From positions 1 through 8,221 of the forward strand of contig JALGWK010000058.1 in assembly GCA_025774205.1 (NCBI GenBank): 8,221 nt of DNA, written 5' to 3'. The notes under the pieces were generated by a model that was not told the origin of the DNA, searched no databases, and saw only the letters and a program-made list of their open reading frames with translations. Positions 1 through 8,221 of the stretch are shown piece after piece. A program made the position numbers and the translations under genes. This DNA is from a bacterium. Lineage in GTDB: Bacteria; Blakebacterota; Blakebacteria; Blakebacterales; Blakebacteraceae. Within the stretch, counting starts at the first letter, position 1. Every line of letters starts with the position of its first letter.

Positions 1-111
1 GACGTCTTTGTCACACAGCCATCCACAGCCATCCTTATCCTTGAAAAACTTCATGGGCCGTGCCGGTTTGTGGGTCTCTGTGCTTGCCTCGAGCCTCTCA
101 TCCGGTTCCAT
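1..111 (-). CDS. N-terminal fragment of an unrecognised protein (3' part outside the window)
   Basis: An ATG at 109-111 is preceded by a strong ribosome binding site (GGAAAGGAG, about 7 bases upstream). It opens a frame that stays open for all 37 codons to the window edge. The peptide begins MEPDERLEAS, is charged and hydrophilic for about 20 residues, then reads MKFFKDKDGCGWLCDKDV. The second methionine (residue 20) begins a more motif-like stretch and could be an alternative start, but the Shine-Dalgarno sequence favours the first. There is no signal peptide. Two cysteines (C29 and C33, spaced CxxxC) are visible. I do not recognise the family. It lies 127 bases downstream of the DsrE-like gene on the same strand, so it may be the last operon member or the first gene of another unit. 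The spacing and Shine-Dalgarno sequence support a real gene; the function is unknown. Confidence 0.6.
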   Translation of the reverse strand, partial: MEPDERLEASTETHKPARPMKFFKDKDGCGWLCDKDV

Positions 112-145
112 GATATGCTCCTTTCCGAGCAGTTGATCTCCCTTT

Positions 146-217
146 CCCGCAATCGGGGCGCGGGGTGAGGGAATCGGTAGTACAACGTTCACGCCGGCCG
201 GTGGAATCGAAGGCCGG
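146..217 (-). other. Intergenic GC-rich inverted repeats between the DsrE-like gene and the downstream gene
   Basis: Two potential hairpins lie in the 127-base gap. One pairs CCGGCC (194-199) with GGCCGG (212-217) across a 12-base loop. The other pairs CCCGC (146-150) with GCGGG (160-164) across 9 bases. Neither is followed by a T-run on the minus strand, so neither is a convincing intrinsic terminator. They could be processing or attenuation structures that let the last gene be expressed at a different level, or they could be chance in GC-rich DNA. I see no clear sigma-70 promoter in the gap. Confidence 0.25.
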
Positions 218-238
218 TTCATCGCATGTCGAGTACAC

Positions 239-613
239 TCAGTAACTGAGGGTCGAGGTCGCCTCCAGGGAATCTGTCACAACACGGGCCGCAGCGACCA
301 TCTCCGCTTCTTCAATGAGCAGCTCGGGGCCGATCTCCCGTTCTTTCAGGCAGGGGGTGCAGACCAGCATCTTCCCACCCAGTTCGAAGAAATTCGCGAC
401 CAGCTCCTTCAACGGCGGGAGATTCGCGGCGAAGATATGGTCCGCGATGCCCTTCTGCGCCACCAGCACCGCGACACCCTGCAGGGCGACCGACACCTCT
501 ACATCCATCACCAGGGCGGCGTTCGCCATCACAAAGGGGAACGATGCCCGTTCAGGATCTTCCGGTCCAAAGGTGGCGATGATGAGCATCTTCTCAGTAG
601 TTTCTTCAGCCAT
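239..613 (-). CDS. DsrE-family sulfurtransferase/peroxiredoxin-like protein
   Basis: This is a 124-residue cytoplasmic protein of the DsrE/DsrF-like alpha/beta fold. It has an N-terminal beta strand (MLIIATFGPED), an Ala/Val-rich helix (FVMANAALVMDVEVSVAL), the segment GIADHIFAANLPPLKELVANF, and then a CxxC motif, CTPC (C85 and C88), after ELGGKMLV. In this superfamily the cysteine in that region carries the persulfide or acts as a redox centre. Relatives with a CxxC are often annotated as peroxiredoxin-like DsrE proteins. It starts at an ATG with a modest purine-rich site (GAGAAAGAGAT), 23 bases after the QmoC-like gene. Its likely role, inferred from the shared operon with a TusA-like carrier and a Qmo/Hdr-like complex, is to receive or donate sulfane sulfur. 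No partner DsrF or DsrH gene is seen, so it is not the DsrEFH hexamer. Confidence 0.85.
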   Translation of the reverse strand: MAEETTEKMLIIATFGPEDPERASFPFVMANAALVMDVEVSVALQGVAVLVAQKGIADHIFAANLPPLKELVANFFELGGKMLVCTPCLKEREIGPELLIEEAEMVAAARVVTDSLEATSTLSY

Positions 614-636
614 CGTCTATCTCTTTCTCATGTCTA

Positions 637-1755
637 TCACGTTGTTACAGGTACGGTCTCCGTGGCTTCCACGGTCGACTTCGCTTTCGCCTTCACGGTG
701 ACCAGGTATATCACCAGCGGGCGGTAGAGCAGGTGAGCCCATTTCCCGAAAGGCACCTCGACCACGAGCATGGGCACAGCCACGGCCAGGTGGATGACAT
801 ACATCACATAGGTCGGAACCGGCATGCCTCCCATCCGCAGGAGGTGAACAAGAATCCCGGTCAGTGAAGTCAGGAACAGCAGGATCAGGAACATCCAGTC
901 AGTCGGATGGGAATGCCTGTGGATCTCGTGGCGCTTTCGGAGGCGGCCGATCATCATGTCCGCGCTGACGTAGAGAAGCACTGCTGTCGCGTAGTACCCG
1001 AAGAGAGAGGTCACGTTCCAGCCGTCCGTCTGGAACCACCGCAGCAGCACCATGATCAGGATGAGCATCGTCGCGTAACCGGTCACCAGCAGGAAGTGCT
1101 TCAGCCAGTGCATCCTCGAGTGATCACACTCCCGCCACCGCTTCTGTGTCATGGCATGACTGAGGAACGTACTGATCTCCGAAAGGTAGATGGACGGCCC
1201 CGCTCTGACGTCACCCATCACGAACCTGCGCAACCTCCAGGCGTTGGTAAGCAGGAAGAAACTGAGGGTTGCCGCCATGATCCAATCGCCGTACTCCACC
1301 CACTTCACCGGCGCGAACGTGTTCAGGGAGACTCGATCGGTGAGCATCGGCCCGTGGAAGAGGACGAACAGGAGCACCACGAAGAGGCTGACGGCCAGGG
1401 TCAGGCCGACCTCCCAGACCTTCGATGTGTAGAGCTTCCGTGCGATACCGGTCCAGTCGTAGCGGGAGATGAGCCACCGGCGCGTCGCCATCATGATCTC
1501 CCCCGGGTTGGCTTCCCGGGGACAGGTCTCGGAGCACTCTCCGCAGTAGTAGCAGAGCCATGGCTCCGGGGACGCTTCCAGCTTTTCAGTGAGTCCCAGC
1601 TGCAGGTAGCGGATCACCTTCCGGGGGAAGACCGTCTCCCCTTTCGAGAGCGGGCAGATCGCGGTGCAGTTACCGCAGTTGAAGCAGGCACTGACGTCGG
1701 CGGCACCGAAGCGCTCGATCTCGGAGATGAGGGTGGGGTCGGCGCGCAGACTCAT
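637..1755 (-). CDS. QmoC-like subunit: HdrC ferredoxin domain fused to HdrE-type membrane cytochrome b
   Basis: This 372-residue protein has the two-part architecture of QmoC. The N-terminal cytoplasmic HdrC domain carries two complete C-x2-C-x2-C-x3-C motifs (C24/27/30/34 and C68/71/74/78), expected to bind two 4Fe-4S clusters. The rest is a NarI/HdrE-like membrane domain. It has about six hydrophobic segments near residues 114-135, 155-172, 217-239, 250-268, 285-305 and 314-334. Histidines in or beside them (H200, H216, H220, H304, H322, H341) are candidate haem b ligands. Its family role is to connect the soluble flavoproteins to the quinone pool at the cytoplasmic membrane. The gene overlaps the upstream winged-helix gene by 4 bases (ATGA), so translation is probably coupled. 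The C-terminal tail after residue 355 is Lys/Thr/Glu-rich and probably cytoplasmic. The direction of electron flow cannot be read from sequence. Ortholog status to true qmoC needs a phylogeny. Confidence 0.9.
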   Translation of the reverse strand: MSLRADPTLISEIERFGAADVSACFNCGNCTAICPLSKGETVFPRKVIRYLQLGLTEKLEASPEPWLCYYCGECSETCPREANPGEIMMATRRWLISRYDWTGIARKLYTSKVWEVGLTLAVSLFVVLLFVLFHGPMLTDRVSLNTFAPVKWVEYGDWIMAATLSFFLLTNAWRLRRFVMGDVRAGPSIYLSEISTFLSHAMTQKRWRECDHSRMHWLKHFLLVTGYATMLILIMVLLRWFQTDGWNVTSLFGYYATAVLLYVSADMMIGRLRKRHEIHRHSHPTDWMFLILLFLTSLTGILVHLLRMGGMPVPTYVMYVIHLAVAVPMLVVEVPFGKWAHLLYRPLVIYLVTVKAKAKSTVEATETVPVTT

Positions 1756-2066
1756 GCTTCATCCTCCGGGGAATCCGCCAATCGGTAGAGAGGCCAGTCT
1801 CCGTCCATGCCCTCCTCGACCGCCAGTCCGTACTTCTTCATGGCGGAGATGTGCCAGAGAGCTGTAGCCGGATCGATTCCGGCTTCACGAGCCACAGTCG
1901 GGACCGTGACCGGTTCCCCGGCCAGGGCTTGCTTCACCTTCCGGCGGATCGATTTCTTCTCCTTCTGCAGTTCCCGGGCACGATCCACCTGGTCCGGACG
2001 CTCATTACGGAGCCGCTTCAGGAATTCCTTCAGTTCCGGATCCATCACCTTCCTGTCTTCAGTCAC
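1752..2066 (-). CDS. Small winged helix-turn-helix protein embedded in the Qmo-like operon
   Basis: This is a 104-residue basic/acidic protein. The first half is a highly charged, probably helical region (LKEFLKRLRNERPDQVDRA and onward to about residue 48). The second half reads as a winged helix. PVTVPTVAREAGIDPATAL resembles the helix-turn-helix, WHISAMKKYGLAVEEG the recognition and following helix, and DGDWPLYRLA the wing strand. I chose the GTG at 2064-2066 because GGAGGT stands 6 bases before it; the ATG at 2043-2045 has a poorer, closer site. It overlaps the preceding flavoprotein gene by 8 bases and the following QmoC-like gene by 4, so it is made in step with the complex. It could be an autoregulator, or a small structural or assembly protein that reuses the fold. 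I do not assign a target. Confidence 0.8.
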   Translation of the reverse strand: MTEDRKVMDPELKEFLKRLRNERPDQVDRARELQKEKKSIRRKVKQALAGEPVTVPTVAREAGIDPATALWHISAMKKYGLAVEEGMDGDWPLYRLADSPEDEA

Positions 2067-3870
2067 TGGCTACCTCCACAGGGTCGGCACACATCGCGTC
2101 GACCATGGCTTCGAACTGATCGAGCGTCCAGCCATTGATATCGATCGCGCGGGTCGGACACACCGCAACACAGGCTCCGCAGCCGGTGCAGAGCGCCTCG
2201 TTCACGACCGCTTTACGGATGGCCCTGCCGTCGATCACGGATTCAACGATCTTGAGGGCGCCGTCGTATTCGCACTGTGACAGGCAGATCCCGGTGCCCT
2301 CGCAACGGTCGGCGTTCACCCGGGCCACATAGGGTTCCAGATCGACATGTCCCCTTGTCAACAGGCCTGCAACCTTCACTGCCGCGGCGGAGGCGGAAGC
2401 ACAGCTCTCTTCGATGTCGCGGGGGCTCTGGCAGGTTCCCGCCAGGACCACCCCCGCCACCGCCATCTCGACCGGACGGAGCTTGGGGTGGACCTCCTGG
2501 AGAAAACCGTCCGCGCCCGCAGGGAGTTTCAGTGATTCCGCCAGGGGACCGACATCGGCCGGCTCCATCCCGACCGCCAGTACAACCAGGTCGACGGCTA
2601 CCTCTATCTCCATACCTGCGGTCAGGTTGTCTTTGACGGTGATGAGCAGGTTCCCGGTATCGTCGGGTGCTGCCATTGTTACCACCGGCGGTGTTGCCGG
2701 CTCATAGCAGAGGAAGGACACACCATCGCGCGAGGCTCGCTCGTAGATCTCTTCGTGGTTACGGCCGTAGGTCCTGATATCACGGTAGAGATCGTAGACG
2801 AATACTCCGGGGAATTTCTCGATGAGATCACTTTCAGCCTTCAGTGTGGCGGTGCAGCAGATCCGGGAGCAGTTCTCGTTCAGGGGACGGCCCGGTTTCG
2901 GTTTTTGGATCCCCTCGATCTGCCGGCTGCCGACGCAGTGAATGAAAGCTGCCCGCCGGATCATCTTTCCATTCACGGTAAGATCGCCATCAGCCCTGGT
3001 CTCATTGAGGATCTGGATAAAATCAGGCAGTGTCACTACTTCGGGGAACTGTCCGAACCCGAACTCCCCCATATCCGGCTCGTAGGGCCTGGAGCCCGTG
3101 GCCACGATGACGGCTCCAGCCGGGATCTCGAGGTCCTCCGTCGATCCGTCGCCTCTCTCCTGTTCCACCATGACGGTGAAATTCCCCACGTAGCCGGTTG
3201 CGCCGGTCACGCGGGCACCGGTCAGAACGGTGATCTCTTCCAGGGCCGAAACGTCCCTGACCAGCGTACGAACCAGTTCCGCTCCGCTCTCACCGGTTGG
3301 GAAGACGGTGCCGAATTCAGCGACCTGGCCGCCGAGTCGGGAGCTCTTTTCGACGATGGTCACGGGCAGTCCGTAAACCGCGAGATCGAGGGCGGCACGA
3401 AGGCCGGCAACCCCGCCACCCAGCACGAGCGCGCGCGAAGTCGCTCCGACCCTGATCAGGGAGAGGGGTTCGTGATGGCGGACCCGGGCGATCGCGGCCC
3501 GGACGAGCGTCGTGGCCTTCGCGGTCGCCTCTCCGGTGCTCGCATGCACCCAGCTGACCTGCTCACGGATGTTGACATGCTCATAGAGGAACTGGTTGAG
3601 TCCACCCCGCACCACCGCGCTCCGGAAGGTGGTCTCATGCAGGCTCGGCGAGCAGGAGGCCACGACGATCCGGTTCAGTCCGTGTTTCTCGATATCCTCG
3701 ACGATCAGTTCCTGCCCGGGATCCGCGCACATGAAGGTGTAGGTCCGTGAGACCGTGACATCGGGGAGATTACCTGCGTCTTCGGCCACCTTCTCCACAT
3801 CAACCTTGTCGGAGATATTCCCTCCGCAGTGGCAGATGTAAACGCCGATCTTCACTTCTTCACTGTTCAT
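2059..3870 (-). CDS. HdrA/QmoB-like flavin- and iron-sulfur-containing oxidoreductase subunit
   Basis: This 603-residue soluble HdrA-family protein has three parts. The N-terminal HdrA domain carries conserved cysteines in CHCGGN (C13, C15), the FMCADPGQ segment (C48) and CSPSLHETTFR (C73). The FAD/NAD-binding Rossmann region has GGGVAGLRAA starting at residue 151, a VATGSRPYEP segment at 257, and a CSRICC motif (C334, C338, C339). The C-terminal ferredoxin domain has one complete motif, C561/564/567/571. Its first motif is incomplete: C523, C529 and C533 are present, but the second cysteine position is threonine (CEGTGIC). Classical QmoB, as I recall it, carries a fused MvhD domain at its C-terminus. 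Here the chain ends just after the ferredoxin domain and a separate MvhD-like gene is upstream. The ATG overlaps the stop of the upstream HdrA-like gene by 4 bases. Expected role: FAD-mediated electron transfer between the sulfur-handling site and the QmoC-like subunit. Confidence 0.9.
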   Translation of the reverse strand: MNSEEVKIGVYICHCGGNISDKVDVEKVAEDAGNLPDVTVSRTYTFMCADPGQELIVEDIEKHGLNRIVVASCSPSLHETTFRSAVVRGGLNQFLYEHVNIREQVSWVHASTGEATAKATTLVRAAIARVRHHEPLSLIRVGATSRALVLGGGVAGLRAALDLAVYGLPVTIVEKSSRLGGQVAEFGTVFPTGESGAELVRTLVRDVSALEEITVLTGARVTGATGYVGNFTVMVEQERGDGSTEDLEIPAGAVIVATGSRPYEPDMGEFGFGQFPEVVTLPDFIQILNETRADGDLTVNGKMIRRAAFIHCVGSRQIEGIQKPKPGRPLNENCSRICCTATLKAESDLIEKFPGVFVYDLYRDIRTYGRNHEEIYERASRDGVSFLCYEPATPPVVTMAAPDDTGNLLITVKDNLTAGMEIEVAVDLVVLAVGMEPADVGPLAESLKLPAGADGFLQEVHPKLRPVEMAVAGVVLAGTCQSPRDIEESCASASAAAVKVAGLLTRGHVDLEPYVARVNADRCEGTGICLSQCEYDGALKIVESVIDGRAIRKAVVNEALCTGCGACVAVCPTRAIDINGWTLDQFEAMVDAMCADPVEVASD

Positions 3871-5207
3871 CGGATTTCCATTCCGGCGGAAACCGCACAG
3901 ACCGCGTCGCCTGCCGGTTCCCTCTTCTTCAGATAGCCCGAGACGGCCATGGCGGCCGCTCCCGCTTCCGCGATCGCGTCGACGATGTCCTTCGGTCCGG
4001 CCGCGGTTCCCGCGACGAAGATCCCCGGTTCATTCGTTCGGCAGGGTTCGATGGTTGGCTTCGGTACCGTCACGAAGCCGTCAGAACTCACACTGATCGG
4101 CATCCGGTCCCGAAGATCCGCCGCCGGCAGCATGCCGAGAGAGAGGACCACGAGATCGTGGGTACGCTCCTCGACCTGACCCAGTTCGTCGATGTGTTCG
4201 AAGCGGACCTCTACGTTACGGTCCCCGGCTTCGTCGATGCGGGCCACCTTTCCCTTCACGAACTCGATCCCCATGGCTGACGCGTTCTGAAAGAAGGTCT
4301 CGTAGCCCTTTCCGAAGGCCCGGATGTCCATGTAGTAGATCGTGATGTCCGCGAACGGCAGCGCGCCCGACAGGAGCATCGCCTGCTTGATGGCGTACAT
4401 GCAGCAGACACGGGAACAGTAGGGAACACCCAGGCTCCTGTCCCGTGAACCGGCGCACTGCACGAAGGCCACGGAATCGGGGACTTTTCCGTCGGCCGGG
4501 CGGAGGACACGTCCGTAGGGTCCGTGAGGCGCGAGCAGGCGCTCCATGGTGAGAGGCGAGATCACATTTACGATCTCGTTACCCCGGTACTCCTCCTTGG
4601 CTCCCATGGGAGTCGTCTCGAAGCCGGTTGCGACAACCACAGAACGGGCCGTTATCTCGATCTCGCGCGGCTTCTGATCGAAGACCACCGCGTCCGTCGG
4701 ACAGGCCACGGCACATTGACCGCAGAGATTGCATTCCATGGGGTCGAGGATCGCCAGCTGCGGGATCGCATTGGTGAAGGGGATGTAAATCGCCCGGTGC
4801 GCCGAAAGACCGCCCTCGAATTCGTCGGCTACATCCGCGTCGCAGGCGTATTCACAAAGGCGGCACCCGATGCAGAGATCTTCGTCCACATAGCGCGGTT
4901 GAAGGGTTACGCGGACGGAGAAATCCTCGTCGTGCCGGGTGACCGACTCCACCTCTGCCAGCGTGAGGATCCGGATGTTCTCGTGGTGCGCTGTCGCTGC
5001 CATCTTCGGGGTGGTGATGCAACTGGCACAATCGAGCGTGGGAAAGACCTTCGACAGGCCGATCATCTTCCCGCCGATACTGGGCTCCTTCTCCACAATG
5101 GCGACCTGCAATCCGAGGTCGGCAAGATCGAGGGCGGTCTGCAGGCCGGCGATGCCGCCGCCGATTACGAGCGTGTCGACGGTTTCAGTGGACGCCGCGC
5201 GGTTCAT
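3867..5207 (-). CDS. HdrA/QmoA-like FAD oxidoreductase with inserted two-cluster ferredoxin domain
   Basis: This 446-residue soluble flavoprotein has an FAD-binding GGGIAGLQTALDLA at about residues 16-29, then EKEPSIGGKM and LDCASC (C60, C63). An inserted ferredoxin domain follows, with C112/115/118/122 (CIGCRLCEYAC) and C159/162/165/169 (CNLCGQCAVACP), both complete. Further on are VVATGFE (residue 191), FVQCAGSRD, the HdrA signature CSRVCCMYAIKQA (C264, C268, C269) and a C-terminal FAD motif GIFVAGTAAGPKDIVDAIAEAGAAA. The frame stays open 26 codons further upstream to 5285. I chose the ATG at 5205-5207 because it gives the usual short N-terminus before the Rossmann motif, forms an ATGA overlap with the MvhD-like stop, and has a GAAGGGGCGG site before it. 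It lacks the N-terminal HdrA domain found in the downstream paralogue. It probably pairs with that protein as the QmoA/QmoB-type flavoprotein dimer. Confidence 0.9.
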   Translation of the reverse strand: MNRAASTETVDTLVIGGGIAGLQTALDLADLGLQVAIVEKEPSIGGKMIGLSKVFPTLDCASCITTPKMAATAHHENIRILTLAEVESVTRHDEDFSVRVTLQPRYVDEDLCIGCRLCEYACDADVADEFEGGLSAHRAIYIPFTNAIPQLAILDPMECNLCGQCAVACPTDAVVFDQKPREIEITARSVVVATGFETTPMGAKEEYRGNEIVNVISPLTMERLLAPHGPYGRVLRPADGKVPDSVAFVQCAGSRDRSLGVPYCSRVCCMYAIKQAMLLSGALPFADITIYYMDIRAFGKGYETFFQNASAMGIEFVKGKVARIDEAGDRNVEVRFEHIDELGQVEERTHDLVVLSLGMLPAADLRDRMPISVSSDGFVTVPKPTIEPCRTNEPGIFVAGTAAGPKDIVDAIAEAGAAAMAVSGYLKKREPAGDAVCAVSAGMEIR

Positions 5208-5596
5208 GTTTCCGCCCCTTCGTAGGCCAGGATCGAGTTCATGTCGGCCACTTCCTTGAGAAACGACTTCGTGCAGACCGTGCATATCGAGGTCAGTTTC
5301 AGGCGGCGGGGATTGATGCCCTGCTCTTTGAGCCCCAGTGACACCCGATCGATCCGGGCTGCCAGCTTCTCGTATGCGCCCTCATAGGGGCACTCCACTC
5401 CGCACGACATGACGATGATCCCCCCTATCCCCTTCTCGAAGCTGTCATAGTAGAATGACTCGGGGAAGACGACGGGGGATGGGACCCGAAGCACGAAGGT
5501 GTTGGCCGGGTAGCTCAGATGAGCCTGGCCCACGGCGTCGGCGCCGGGATAGGCACAGGCCGCCGAGGCCAGGATAAGGATCCGGTCGGTCCCCAC
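5204..5596 (-). CDS. MvhD/FlpD-like (hydrogenase iron-sulfur subunit family) electron-transfer protein
   Basis: This 130-residue cytoplasmic protein follows the MvhD/FlpD pattern. It has CAYPGADAVGQAHLSYP (C14), the RVP segment around residues 37-39, the helix ESFYYDSFEKGIGGIIVMSCGVECPYEGAYE (interrupted here only for description; C65, C69), and a C-terminal LTSICTVCTKSFLKEV (C105, C108). Family members bind one 2Fe-2S cluster and pass electrons between HdrA-type flavoproteins and a partner enzyme. Some residues differ from what I expect of the family: the first Cys of the N-terminal CxxC-like motif is serine or alanine (SAAC), and the RVxC position is RVPS. The added CxxC near the C-terminus may supply replacement ligands. 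The start is a GTG at 5594-5596, 4 bases after the TusA-like stop, with no strong Shine-Dalgarno sequence, which suggests coupling. In classical Qmo this module is fused to QmoB. Confidence 0.83.
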   Translation of the reverse strand: MGTDRILILASAACAYPGADAVGQAHLSYPANTFVLRVPSPVVFPESFYYDSFEKGIGGIIVMSCGVECPYEGAYEKLAARIDRVSLGLKEQGINPRRLKLTSICTVCTKSFLKEVADMNSILAYEGAET

Positions 5597-5600
5597 GGTG

Positions 5601-5858
5601 CTACTTGCCGCGCTTCACGAACAGCCGGTCGTAGCCTTCGTCGGCCTCGAGCGCTCCCAGGAATTCATGGCCCACCTTGTTCGCCCAGATGGGGATATCG
5701 CTTCTGGTACCGGGGTCATTCGAGCGGATCTCGAGGATCCCGCCAACCGGGACTCCACCGATACCTTTCTTGGCTTCAAGGAGGGGGCCGGGGCAGGCGC
5801 TGCCGCGCGCGTCGACCATCTTTGCCGCTTCCAGACTCGTCAGTTCCATCGTGTCCAT
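5601..5858 (-). CDS. tusA: TusA-family sulfur carrier protein
   Basis: This 85-residue protein of the TusA/SirA/YedF fold carries the signature CPGP (C22 to P25) in RGSACPGPLLEAKKGIG. The downstream strand and helix (ILEIRSNDPGTRSDIPIWA, then NKVGHEFLGALEADEGYDR) are typical of the family. The cysteine forms a persulfide and hands sulfane sulfur to partners. The start ATG at 5856-5858 has GAGGAAG about 5 bases before it; the ATG three codons later is less well placed. It lies 35 bases after the ArsR-family gene and 4 bases before the MvhD-like gene. Placement with a DsrE-family protein and a Qmo/Hdr-like complex suggests a dedicated sulfur-relay paralogue rather than the housekeeping TusA of tRNA thiolation. 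That is inferred from context, and the symbol denotes family only. Confidence 0.93.
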   Translation of the reverse strand: MDTMELTSLEAAKMVDARGSACPGPLLEAKKGIGGVPVGGILEIRSNDPGTRSDIPIWANKVGHEFLGALEADEGYDRLFVKRGK

Positions 5859-5893
5859 GTCACTTCCTCTGTTGGGGCGGGCGTGCCGCCAGA

Positions 5894-6238
5894 TCAGTCT
5901 TTAACAGCGTGGTCGAGGAGCCTCCCCGACTTCTCGAGCTCTTCCAGGAGCCCTTCCTGCATAAGCACCGATCCGCGCAGGAACTTCTGGTTCCGTACGC
6001 GGTAGAAAACGTTATGCCCGTCGCGCCGCTGGGAGACTGCGCTGCGGTCCTTCATGATCGCCAGGTGCTGGGAAACAGCAGACATCGACATTCCGAGTTC
6101 GTTCGCTATGTCGCCGACGCAGAGTTCTCTCTTCCCAAGGAGGTTGAGGATCCTCAGGCGTGCCGCATTGGAGAAGATCCCGCAGAATCTGGCCTGCAGG
6201 GCGAAAACATCTGGTGGTTTATTGTTTTGCATATTCAT
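5894..6238 (-). CDS. ArsR-family winged-helix transcriptional regulator
   Basis: This 114-residue regulator fits the ArsR/SmtB fold. FCGIFSNAARLRILNLLGKR is the conserved N-terminal helix pair. ELCVGDIANELGMSMSAVSQ followed by HLAIMKDRSAV is the helix-turn-helix, and RRDGHNVFYRV is the wing. The open frame reaches a TTG at 6268, but I chose the ATG at 6236-6238 because AGGAG lies 10 bases before it; an ATG two codons later is also possible. Cysteines are C19 and C40 (the latter in ELCVGD). Classical arsenic sensors have ELCVCD with two cysteines there, so the second is missing. A single-Cys or C19/C40 redox or persulfide mechanism, or an apo-type regulator, is plausible. As first gene of the operon, divergent from the repeat-protein gene, it probably controls itself and the sulfur genes. 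The inducer is not identifiable from sequence. Confidence 0.9.
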   Translation of the reverse strand: MNMQNNKPPDVFALQARFCGIFSNAARLRILNLLGKRELCVGDIANELGMSMSAVSQHLAIMKDRSAVSQRRDGHNVFYRVRNQKFLRGSVLMQEGLLEELEKSGRLLDHAVKD

Positions 6239-6248
6239 ATATCTGCAA
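6227..6248. promoter_or_regulatory. Imperfect inverted repeat over the arsR-like start codon (candidate operator)
   Basis: TTGCATAT (6227-6234) and ATCTGCAA (6241-6248) are inverted repeats matching at 7 of 8 positions around a 6-base AT-rich spacer. The site covers the regulator's start codon and sits just downstream of its ribosome binding site. ArsR-family proteins usually bind AT-rich imperfect palindromes near their own promoter, so this is a candidate autoregulatory site. It could instead form a weak RNA hairpin that hides the start. Assigned from symmetry alone. Confidence 0.3.
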
Positions 6249-6264
6249 CTCCTAATGTTAAATA

Positions 6265-6294
6265 TCAATAAATGTGATCATTATCGCCTGTCAA
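6265..6294 (-). promoter_or_regulatory. Candidate sigma-70 promoter of the arsR-tusA-qmo-like operon
   Basis: On the minus strand TTGACA (6289-6294) is a perfect -35 box. TATTGA (6265-6270) is a weak -10 box (3 of 6) after an 18-base spacer. It lies 27 bases before the arsR-like ATG and leaves room for the AGGAG site. A CAAT/ATTG inverted repeat (6292-6295 and 6300-6303) overlaps the -35 box and could bind a repressor. The poor -10 box would fit a regulated promoter, or the true -10 may be different. Confidence 0.4.
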
Positions 6295-6550: not shown

Positions 6551-7201
6551 ATGTTGAAGACGAGGATATGTCTGATTTCGGCAGCTGTTCTTCTATGTGG
6601 GATAGTGTCATTCGCCTCTGTGCAGTCTCAGGAACCGCCGCAGCAGAATCAGCCGCCAGTGGTCTACGGCCGCGGCCAGGGTGGGATACCCTTCGCCTGG
6701 AATGACCTGAACAGGGACGGCGTCTGCGATCTGACCGGCCAGCCGGTCGGCCAGCGTCCGATTGCCTTCGGCGGCGGTCGGGGCCGCTGGGCCCAGGTCG
6801 GCCAGTTCGTCGGACAGGTTGCCGGTCAGGCGGGGATGCTCTATGGCCGCGGACGGGGTGGTGTGCCCTATGCCTGGAACGACCGGAACCAGGATGGTGT
6901 CTGCGATCTGACCGGCCAGCCGGTCGGCCAGCGTCCGATCGCCTTCGGCGGCGATCGCGGTCGTGGGACCATGGTCAGCCAGTTCGCCGGACAGGTTACC
7001 GGTCAGGCGGGGATGCTCTATGGCCGCGGACGGGGTGGTGTGCCTTACGCCTGGAACGACCGGAACCAGGATGGTGTCTGCGATCTGACCGGCCAGCCGG
7101 TCGGCCAGCGTCCGATTGCCTTCGGCGGTGGTCGGGGCATTGGTAACGGTCGGGGCCTTGGTAGCGGTCGGGGCCGCGGTGGTGGCCGGTGGTGGAGGTA
7201 A
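6551..7201 (+). CDS. Exported three-repeat protein with EF-hand-like loops and Gly/Arg-rich tail
   Basis: The 216-residue product starts at ATG 6551, preceded by a strong GGGAGGGA site. The first 25-30 residues form a signal peptide: basic MLKTR, hydrophobic ICLISAAVLLCGIVSFA, then a polar region with likely cleavage near ASVQS-QEPP. A Pro/Gln-rich linker follows. Three tandem 59-residue repeats start near residues 38, 97 and 156. Each contains YGRG, a GGIPFAWND or GGVPYAWND segment, a D-x-N-x-D-G-x-C-D loop resembling a calcium-binding EF-hand or dockerin loop, and the invariant core DLTGQPVGQRPIAFGG. The third repeat loses the Gln-rich GQAGM end and runs into GRGIGNGRGLGSGRGRGGGR. It is probably periplasmic or surface-located and binds a metal or other ligand; the single Cys per loop is notable. 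It is transcribed away from the sulfur operon and converges with a response regulator 20 bases downstream. No enzymatic domain is seen. Confidence 0.85.
   Translation: MLKTRICLISAAVLLCGIVSFASVQSQEPPQQNQPPVVYGRGQGGIPFAWNDLNRDGVCDLTGQPVGQRPIAFGGGRGRWAQVGQFVGQVAGQAGMLYGRGRGGVPYAWNDRNQDGVCDLTGQPVGQRPIAFGGDRGRGTMVSQFAGQVTGQAGMLYGRGRGGVPYAWNDRNQDGVCDLTGQPVGQRPIAFGGGRGIGNGRGLGSGRGRGGGRWWR
6662..7192 (+). repeat. Three tandem 177-bp coding repeats
   Basis: Units begin at 6662, 6839 and 7016, exactly 177 bases (59 codons) apart. A 41-base core (6722-6762 and the same positions plus 177 and plus 354) is identical in all three. Units 2 and 3 differ only at a few, mostly synonymous, positions over their first 120 bases or so. 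Unit 3 diverges at its end into a Gly/Arg-rich tail. Each core contains a near-palindrome, GACCGGC-CA-GCCGGTC (6733-6748, 6910-6925, 7087-7102). The high nucleotide identity indicates recent duplication or gene conversion. Confidence 0.9.
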
Positions 7202-7221: not shown

Positions 7222-7632
7222 TCAGATTTTCAGGAGTTCGGTGATCGTTTTCAGGAACGGTTCCGGGTCTATCGGCTTGGGGAAAAATCCGTCGGGCGGT
7301 GGTACCAGCCGGCGACCGCTCAGGAACTTTTCATAGCCGTACTTGTCACCTCCATACCCGGTCACCGCCGTCACGATGACCACCGGTATGGAAGCAAGAT
7401 CGGAATCACTCCTGATGTCCCTGTAAAACCGCGTTCCGGAGGCCTCCGGCATCGAGACATCAAGCGTTACCAGGTCAGGTCTTTCCTGACGGGCGACCTC
7501 GATGCCCTCTCTCCCATTCGAGGCGGAAACGGTCTCGTATCCGTTATCTCGGAGGAGCATCTCCAGATAACTCACCACGTCAGGTTCATCATCCACGATC
7601 AGGATCTTCTTCGTTTCTCCGGTGCTCGACAT
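7222..7632 (-). CDS. Single-domain response regulator (CheY-like receiver)
   Basis: This 136-residue protein consists of one receiver domain with no output domain. The acidic pair is D14-D15 (ILIVDDEPD), the phosphoacceptor is D58 (LVTLDVSMP), the switch threonine is T88 (VVIVTA) and the conserved lysine is K119 (FFPKPID). The distance from T88 to K119 is 31 residues. In E. coli CheY it is 22 (T87 to K109), so there is an extension of about 9 residues (around TGYGGDKYGYEKFLSGRR) in the beta4-alpha4-beta5 part. The start ATG has AAGGAG 7 bases upstream. The gene lies 71 bases downstream of another receiver protein on the same strand, and the two probably form an operon. With no output domain it should act by protein-protein contact or in a phosphorelay. 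No histidine kinase is in the window. Confidence 0.93.
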   Translation of the reverse strand: MSSTGETKKILIVDDEPDVVSYLEMLLRDNGYETVSASNGREGIEVARQERPDLVTLDVSMPEASGTRFYRDIRSDSDLASIPVVIVTAVTGYGGDKYGYEKFLSGRRLVPPPDGFFPKPIDPEPFLKTITELLKI

Positions 7633-7703
7633 CTCAGCTCTCCTTCTGATTCGAAACTGTTACCTGTATCACCGATTCAGGAACTGGACAGATTGCCTCC
7701 GAT

Positions 7704-8221
7704 TTACGCATCTGGCGGGCTCTTGCCTCTTAATGCTTCGAGGGCGCGTCGAAGGGCATGCGGCTCGGCTTTCGTCAGTTGCTCTTCGAGTTCTTCCTGC
7801 AGGTTGATCCGCTCCTCGTCATCCGGCGCCTCTTCCAGTCCCAGCGCCCGCTGAACGCTCCGGACGTAGTCGAGCGGTCGCACCGGCTTCTCGAGGTAAG
7901 TCCCCGGGCCGGAGATGACCCGGTTCTCCATGATGTCGTCGAGGTCGTCCTTCCCCAGTTCGTCCTGGGCATGGGCCGTGACGATGAGCACGGGGATTCG
8001 GGAGAGATCCTTGTCCTTCCGCAATTCATAGAGGAGCTTGTGTCCACTCTTGCCCGGCATGACCAGGTCGAGGGAAATGAAGTCAGGCCGCTGCTCTCTG
8101 ATGAGCTGCAGGGCTTCATTCCCATCCGATGCCGTCAGGACATTGAACTCTGCATCTCGGAGGATCTGGGCCAGGTACTCCCGCACATTCGGTTCATCAT
8201 CGACGACGAGTACGGTCTTCT
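7704..8221 (-). CDS. Response regulator receiver protein (N-terminal end outside the window)
   Basis: The frame is open to the window edge and the last in-window residues read KTVLVVDDEPNVREYLAQ, the start of a receiver domain, so probably only a few residues are missing. The GTG at 8184-8186 is an internal valine after the acidic pair, not the start. The phosphoacceptor Asp is encoded at 8067-8069 (FISLDLVMPG), followed by the switch Thr (VLIVTA) and Lys (YLEKPVRP). The Thr-Lys distance is 30 residues, again longer than in CheY, matching the neighbouring receiver. A tail of about 45 residues after the domain is rich in Glu and Leu (EERINLQEELEEQLTKAE and onward) and probably helical; it is not a DNA-binding domain. 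It is likely co-transcribed with the next receiver gene. The signal is unknown. Confidence 0.92.
   Translation of the reverse strand, partial: KTVLVVDDEPNVREYLAQILRDAEFNVLTASDGNEALQLIREQRPDFISLDLVMPGKSGHKLLYELRKDKDLSRIPVLIVTAHAQDELGKDDLDDIMENRVISGPGTYLEKPVRPLDYVRSVQRALGLEEAPDDEERINLQEELEEQLTKAEPHALRRALEALRGKSPPDA

Follow-up and report, generated by a model that had tools for sequence, protein, structure and literature searches.

A sulfur-carrier and HdrA-type operon in a draft bacterial genome

The stretch studied here, called the window below, is an entire contig of 8221 bp (JALGWK010000058.1; G000:C175 in our collection) from a draft host genome of 3.09 Mb that is about 86% complete and whose phylum, Blakebacterota, has only 4 genomes in the collection. 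Its minus strand carries, from position 6268 to 239, a single operon with the order arsR–tusA–mvhD–hdrA(A)–hdrA(B)–wHTH–qmoC–dsrE, where wHTH stands for a small winged helix-turn-helix protein and the two HdrA-type flavoproteins are referred to as A and B (Table 1). Read from arsR to dsrE, the gaps are 35, 4, -4, -4, -8, -4 and 23 bp, with overlaps of 4–8 bp at the core, and the spacing between tusA and qmoC (the second to sixth of these values) fits one transcript. The arsR frame opens with a TTG at 6268, although an in-frame ATG near 6238 was judged the likelier start; in a search for an operator palindrome and a promoter upstream of arsR, the inverted repeats were all weak, and the single promoter-like match, against 2.0 expected, was on the opposite strand.

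Every gene named in a preliminary description of this operon was confirmed by profile. The ArsR-type regulator is indeed present at the head, but winged-helix genes number two, the second lying between B and qmoC. A profile scan of the window proteins revealed no HdrB (CCG domain), AprAB or DsrAB, as that description had also claimed; AprAB, Dsr and canonical qmoABC are encoded elsewhere in the genome.

Table 1. Features of the operon, with TusA-like genes lacking the catalytic cysteine at related loci (L numbers are loci of our survey)
Feature	Position	Strand	Evidence and remarks
ArsR/SmtB-type regulator, operon head	5894..6268	-	NCBIfam HTH_metalloreg 77.9 bits, cut-off 55
TusA sulfur carrier	5601..5858	-	PF01206 64.2 bits; CPGP; catalytic Cys22 within DARGSACPGPLLEAKKGI
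MvhD/FlpD variant	5204..5596	-	PF02662 67.5 bits; C65, C69, C105, C108; motif ICTVC
HdrA-type flavoprotein A (QmoA position)	3867..5207	-	NCBIfam HdrA2 463.6 bits, far under the whole-protein cut-off
HdrA-type flavoprotein B (QmoB position)	2059..3870	-	NCBIfam HdrA2 515.8 bits, far under the whole-protein cut-off
Small winged-helix protein (wHTH), between B and qmoC	1752..2066	-	HTH_20 31.4 bits
QmoC-like membrane subunit, two [4Fe-4S] motifs and haem-b type membrane part	637..1755	-	NCBIfam qmoC 188 bits, under the curated cut-off of 300
DsrE-family sulfurtransferase	239..613	-	PF02635 51.9 bits; C85 (CTPC)
Open reading frame downstream of dsrE	1..222	-	KFFKDKDGxGWLCDKDV; 16-bp gap after dsrE; possibly an operon member
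TusA-like genes without catalytic cysteine	L056 4178-4483; L062 3371-3619; L068 4332-4613; L070 3677-3910; L080 3840-4226; L085 4350-4625; L090 162-398

Conservation of the module and rewiring of the MvhD cysteines

When 84,980 species genomes were scanned with the QmoC-like protein, 504 relatives came up, and among the best 80, which were kept, the order tusA-mvhD-A-B-(wHTH)-qmoC recurred together with dsrE, either downstream or at the head, in at least 26 other loci. These 26 loci come from Desulfobacterota, Planctomycetota, Krumholzibacteriota, Chloroflexota, Verrucomicrobiota, Lentisphaerota, Bacteroidota and Hodarchaeota. The module is therefore conserved in at least nine bacterial and archaeal phyla, and a gene order that recurs across phyla is not a product of chance. 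Considering loci with full flanks and a wHTH gene directly upstream of qmoC, both tusA and dsrE were present in 21 of 26, and the five lacking them all had the Acidobacteria-type arrangement described below. Neither gene was seen at canonical qmo loci (0/15).

An independent search of 301 Chloroflexota and 395 Desulfobacterota genomes, made with the MvhD variant alone, led to the same association. All 38 loci whose MvhD carries the motif ICxVC had a cysteine-bearing TusA next door, the single match without the motif had none, and the whole gene order was found in each of the 11 MvhD-found loci that were read over 13-18 kb. The linkage of tusA and dsrE to this core, which the preliminary description had proposed to check in relatives, thus holds. 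The wHTH gene between B and qmoC is kept in 45 loci; the AlphaFold2 model of its product (predicted local distance difference test, pLDDT, 91) gave only weak and generic Foldseek matches to ArsR, MarR and Fur winged helices, so that it may be a regulator or a structural subunit. Two variations were noted in the survey. On a branch with ICSVC in MvhD (L190-L195), QmoC is split into two genes, one HdrC-like and one for the membrane part, and in Desulfobacterota-like clusters only, dsrE is followed by a cysteine-rich protein of about 240 residues with no Pfam match and an invariant FRKCYA(R/K)GCPxNLCxH (L056 10590-11294 and seven further loci).

The most specific mark of the module lies in MvhD itself. 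We aligned 28 TusA-type MvhDs with 42 others, namely hydrogenase-linked, HdrABC-linked and FrhB-linked proteins and QmoB C-termini. The first canonical iron-sulfur (FeS) cysteine is absent from all TusA-type proteins (0/28) and present in all others (42/42), while the ICxVC pair, C105 and C108 in the window, shows the reverse distribution (28/28 versus 0/42). The TusA-type variant forms one clade (support 98), and the 28-versus-0 count does not represent 28 independent events because the labels follow shared descent. C69 is kept throughout, and nearly every TusA-type MvhD has C40 or C65, usually one of the two (L063 has both, and in L086 the cysteine is displaced by two residues). In the AlphaFold2 model (pLDDT 86; Foldseek match to MvhD 5odc_D with a template-modelling score of 0.88 and a root-mean-square deviation of 1.4), these cysteines are predicted to lie in loops after neighbouring strands. 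Since Cys69, Cys105 and Cys108 are kept together with C65 or C40, a metal or FeS site is probably retained, and reading ICxVC solely as a free redox dithiol is weakened by this apparent re-ligation. Read cautiously, this would be a re-ligated cluster at the old MvhD site; read more boldly, it would be a site that handles sulfur.

Both sulfur carriers keep their catalytic cysteines. The catalytic Cys22 is kept in every core TusA of the cluster, within a cluster-specific motif CPGPLLEAKK, and the window TusA is the only one found in the draft host genome. C85 of DsrE is kept in 38 of 38 proteins; the closest solved DsrE is 3MC3, which is DsrE3A of Sulfolobus solfataricus (PMC4175335), and dsrE often occurs in two or three copies (L080, L085, L096, L099). 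In L099, a gene for a CoA-disulfide-reductase-like protein with a rhodanese domain, of the persulfide reductase type, stands directly behind the second dsrE (11795-13531). In Desulfobacterota, a second TusA-like gene often precedes the core tusA and has lost the catalytic cysteine in 7 of 7 cases (Table 1), and further such copies occur among the loci found independently with MvhD. A YeeE-type importer was considered as a universal partner and rejected, being present in only 8 of 18 genomes and not in the host.

The ArsR proteins linked to the cluster have an invariant cysteine in helix alpha2 (Cys29; 9/9) and, in about 6 of 9, one in alpha5, which is missing in the window ArsR and in L026. 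Sulfane-sulfur-sensing ArsRs of the SqrR/BigR/sHdrR kind need both (PMC12423496).

Relation to Qmo and other HdrA-type complexes

The two flavoproteins divide the parts of HdrA between them. A spans HdrA positions 140-573, with the flavin adenine dinucleotide (FAD) domain and the inserted 2x[4Fe-4S], and has neither the N- nor the C-terminal HdrA domains; B has the N-terminal HdrA domain, the FAD domain and the C-terminal ferredoxin domain, and misses the inserted ferredoxin. We infer that A and B correspond to complementary halves of an HdrA dimer. In the tree, canonical QmoA and QmoB fall on one side and A, B and HdrA on the other (100/100), with A placed next to HdrA (96/95). The possibility that A and B nest inside QmoA and QmoB was already raised in the preliminary description; no such nesting was seen, and the approximately unbiased (AU) test rejected both forced groupings, A with QmoA (p 1.7e-6) and B with QmoB (p 1.1e-5). 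The host's own canonical Qmo copies sit in a clade apart from A/B (100/100). One of them, on contig C11 (L020), lies beside aprA together with DsrC and a DsrM-like gene, and the other is on contig C15 (L021); dsrA with neighbouring dsr-like genes is found on contig C450 (L149), and pieces of aprA/aprB on contig C26 (L150). Behind the second qmoABC lies a gene whose small product has several CxxCH haem motifs and is a candidate DsrJ-like partner (L021 223-1886), and the A protein of a Planctomycetota metagenome-assembled genome is 87% identical to the window A despite the different phyla (L026 5369-6907), which could reflect either recent transfer or a binning or taxonomy problem.

The QmoC-like protein belongs to a new family apart from canonical QmoC (support 100, in a tree with long branches). 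Both families have 8 FeS cysteines, C210 and H220/H322/H341, and they differ at H304, which is invariant in the QmoC-like family and E/Q in canonical QmoC. This tree mixes TusA-type, Acidobacteria-type and C-B-type loci, so that the TusA-linked QmoC is not a clean clade, in contrast to the TusA-type MvhD. In canonical QmoB of L020 and L021 the FlpD/MvhD domain is fused at the C terminus, an arrangement also described in the literature (PMC4911364), while mvhD is a separate gene in the window; the D+A+B+C set of the window (D being MvhD and C the QmoC-like subunit) therefore amounts to a Qmo with MvhD unfused. Its composition matches Qmo domain for domain, yet by ancestry it is not a Qmo copy.

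The distribution of the module points the same way. Among 29 cluster-bearing genomes, DsrA was clear in 16, and 12 had none of DsrA, AprA and canonical QmoC; a second set of genomes lacked DsrA in 8 of 16. With no completeness values for these genomes, any one absence says little, yet the same picture returns from phylum to phylum. The module is thus not dependent on these systems, and, together with the A/B tree, this leads us to reject the operon as a canonical Qmo paralogue.

The core also occurs with other partners. Six Acidobacteria-type loci (L076, L077, L087, L089, L091, L092) encode, between D and A, the large subunit of a NiFe hydrogenase and have no TusA or DsrE; MvhG was present where checked, and L092 adds a maturation protease. 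The order B-D-MvhG-MvhA-A-wHTH-QmoC at these loci likely encodes a quinone-linked cytoplasmic hydrogenase complex. In Desulfobacterales the core reads qmoC(fused CCG)-B-D-FrhB-A. These exchanges of hydrogenase, FrhB and TusA/DsrE suggest that D-A-B-C is a quinone-coupling core with interchangeable soluble partners, on which TusA/DsrE would occupy the place of the hydrogenase. The Desulfobacterales version itself combines FrhB and a two-headed HdrA fusion with a QmoC that carries fused HdrD-like CCG domains (L030 6432-16780, L037 8920-19350 and about 25 similar loci). Desulfospira joergensenii, an isolate, has this version, and the A protein of L030 contains a response-regulator domain.

Comparison with known systems gives good support to the proposal, made in the preliminary description, of a third arrangement distinct from both aprAB-linked Qmo and sHdr: the AU tests, the lack of HdrB and the linkage of tusA and dsrE in relatives all argue for it, although the two points of most weight, the rewired MvhD cysteines and the exchange of TusA/DsrE for NiFe hydrogenase in Acidobacteria, had been missed. 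With canonical QmoABC the module shares two HdrA-type flavoproteins, a FlpD domain and a membrane haem/FeS QmoC; it differs in the unfused FlpD, the separate A/B clade, a QmoC under the family cut-off, H304 in place of E/Q, and in not needing APS reductase. Its HdrA and MvhD resemble those of HdrABC-MvhAGD of methanogens and bacteria in fold and ancestry, but HdrB and hydrogenase are missing, the FeS ligands of MvhD are rewired, and a quinone-linked membrane subunit is added. Like sHdr (shdrC1B1A-hyp-C2B2, tusA, dsrE, lbpA), it has an HdrA-type protein beside tusA and dsrE and an ArsR-type regulator; unlike sHdr, it has no HdrB in the window and includes a membrane subunit. LbpA was not found among the proteins of this short contig, and the genome was not searched for it. 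A scores 396 bits against methanogen HdrA and 117 bits against 6tjr, a small HdrA-like chain that we take to be sHdrA, and with HdrB absent we rejected an sHdr variant. TusA also adjoins a DsrE-type transferase in many Desulfobacterota that have the YeeE transporter; the pairing is alike, but here it accompanies a redox complex; the window has no YeeE, and none was found in the host.

The nearest known kind is the type II Qmo, known from Vulcanisaeta moutnovskia and Ammonifex degensii among others, to whose clade the module may belong. As in that group, A/B are closer to HdrA than to canonical QmoA/B, and QmoC lies outside the canonical group. Type II Qmo occurs with or without Dsr/Apr, and its role has been said to need experiments (ISME J 2023, PMC10504309); the main text of that paper is silent on any TusA/MvhD/wHTH/DsrE operon and on the altered cysteines of MvhD. 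HdrA3/A3' of D. autotrophicum with MvhD (PMC2702500) may be an earlier, unrecognised and unverified sighting. In the searchable literature, which leaves out subscription papers, we found no description of a TusA–MvhD operon. New here are the loss of the first FeS cysteine of MvhD with the gain of ICxVC, and the TusA–MvhD operon as a conserved gene set.

Some further features of the window stand apart from these comparisons. The open reading frame behind dsrE (222-1) is incomplete because the window ends with the contig; small cysteine-containing frames of this kind (GWLCDKDV) lie near the cluster in two phyla, with a homologue downstream in L070 (14076-14300). Positions 6554-7201 encode a secreted-looking, calcium-binding-like protein in which a 177-bp repeat (NDRNQDGVCDLTG units) occurs 2.6 times and whose end is Gly/Arg-rich, followed by two response regulators at 7222-8219.

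Possible function and its alternatives

The reading we prefer, and to which we give about an even chance, is a membrane-bound Qmo-like complex of HdrA-type parts (MvhD+A+B+QmoC) that exchanges electrons between protein-bound persulfide and menaquinone, with a TusA/DsrE sulfane-sulfur relay as its cytoplasmic partner. TusA, or DsrE loaded by TusA, would bring the persulfide to MvhD, which sits where hydrogenase docks in MvhAGD-HdrABC, so that TusA would take the hydrogenase's place. The rewired cysteine site (C69, C105, C108 and C65 or C40) may then handle the sulfur and electron exchange, R-SSH + 2e- + H+ <-> R-SH + HS-, and two electrons would pass through the ferredoxin and flavin centres of an A/B heterodimer and QmoC, to or from menaquinone. 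The working direction we assume is from sulfane sulfur to sulfide; persulfide reduction by menaquinol alone would be uphill, and perhaps flavin-based confurcation is involved. ArsR probably keeps the operon repressed until sulfane sulfur appears. More tentatively, and with odds that we place against it, the module could define a new class of respiratory complex, a membrane-bound protein-persulfide:menaquinone oxidoreductase, in which replacement of FeS ligands by ICxVC turned MvhD into the docking and reaction site for TusA; many anaerobes, also some that lack dissimilatory sulfite reductase, would then be capable of cytoplasmic energy-linked sulfur respiration.

Several points weigh against the persulfide:menaquinone reading. 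We know of no biochemistry for any member of the module. The operon also encodes nothing like HdrB to catalyse S-S chemistry, which makes the reactive site a guess; the two ICxVC cysteines may be just new FeS ligands without a role in sulfur transfer. The window ArsR lacks the second sensor cysteine, and a YeeE-type importer that could supply the sulfur is not general among the genomes. Moreover, the host and most Desulfobacterota members have Dsr/Apr, and in them TusA/DsrE could feed that pathway.

The same complex could also run oxidatively, as a cytoplasmic counterpart of sulfide:quinone reductase that turns sulfide (or thiol and sulfide) into protein persulfide, passes electrons to menaquinone and leaves TusA/DsrE to export the sulfur, for example to DsrC/DsrAB. 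We regard this as unlikely. In its favour, by established potentials the flow from sulfide to menaquinone is downhill, the host has DsrC, DsrA and AprAB-Qmo, TusA-to-DsrE-to-DsrC transfer is established in cable bacteria (PMC13293266), and sulfur oxidation is under the control of sHdrR/SoxR-type sensors (PMC12423496). Against it, the 12 cluster-bearing genomes with neither DsrA nor AprA would have no known oxidising outlet, and many of them belong to groups known mainly as anaerobic organotrophs. Another rival, in which the operon encodes a paralogue of Qmo that works for APS reductase or the Dsr system and tusA and dsrE just share its transcript, is largely refuted and hardly credible any longer; AprA, AprB and Dsr genes in the host and the distant kinship of the QmoC-like subunit to QmoC would suit it, yet a canonical qmoABC already adjoins aprA in this genome (L020), A/B do not group with QmoA/B, and those 12 genomes lack AprA, DsrA and canonical QmoC alike.

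Two other explanations separate the carriers from the reaction. TusA and DsrE might be assembly factors, their sulfur going into an unusual cofactor of the variant MvhD or into a modified flavin or FeS site, in a complex with another redox substrate. TusA proteins do serve cofactor and tRNA sulfuration in E. coli, and it is the variant MvhD, not QmoC itself, that TusA is tied to here, but no other MvhD/HdrA complex needs a TusA of its own for its FeS clusters, and the added DsrE, often in two or three copies, and the sensor-type ArsR fit a substrate relay better, which leaves this explanation improbable. It is also very improbable that the core is a general electron hub whose true donor or acceptor (a hydrogenase, formate dehydrogenase or ferredoxin at MvhD) is encoded elsewhere, with TusA/DsrE acting on a different enzyme: although related cores do carry NiFe hydrogenase (Acidobacteria) or FrhB and a QmoC-CCG fusion (Desulfobacterales), the TusA-type operon has no other conserved catalytic gene, and the altered MvhD is confined to loci with TusA.

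HdrA-type complexes are the main route by which anaerobes couple low-potential redox chemistry to energy conservation, and the module gives a genetic handle on electron exchange between cytoplasmic sulfane sulfur and the membrane outside Dsr and sHdr. Its seven-gene core has a diagnostic marker, ICxVC in an MvhD beside TusA, that is easily spotted in genomes, and it suggests a role, open to testing, for some of the type II Qmo proteins, to which published work assigns no function. The swap of hydrogenase and TusA on one core suggests evolution by exchange of the soluble partner. The module would alter predictions of sulfur metabolism for Planctomycetota, Chloroflexota, Krumholzibacteriota, Lentisphaerota and Hodarchaeota genomes without dsrAB, and it may explain sulfur reduction or oxidation in many anaerobes that do not have the usual genes for sulfite reductase.

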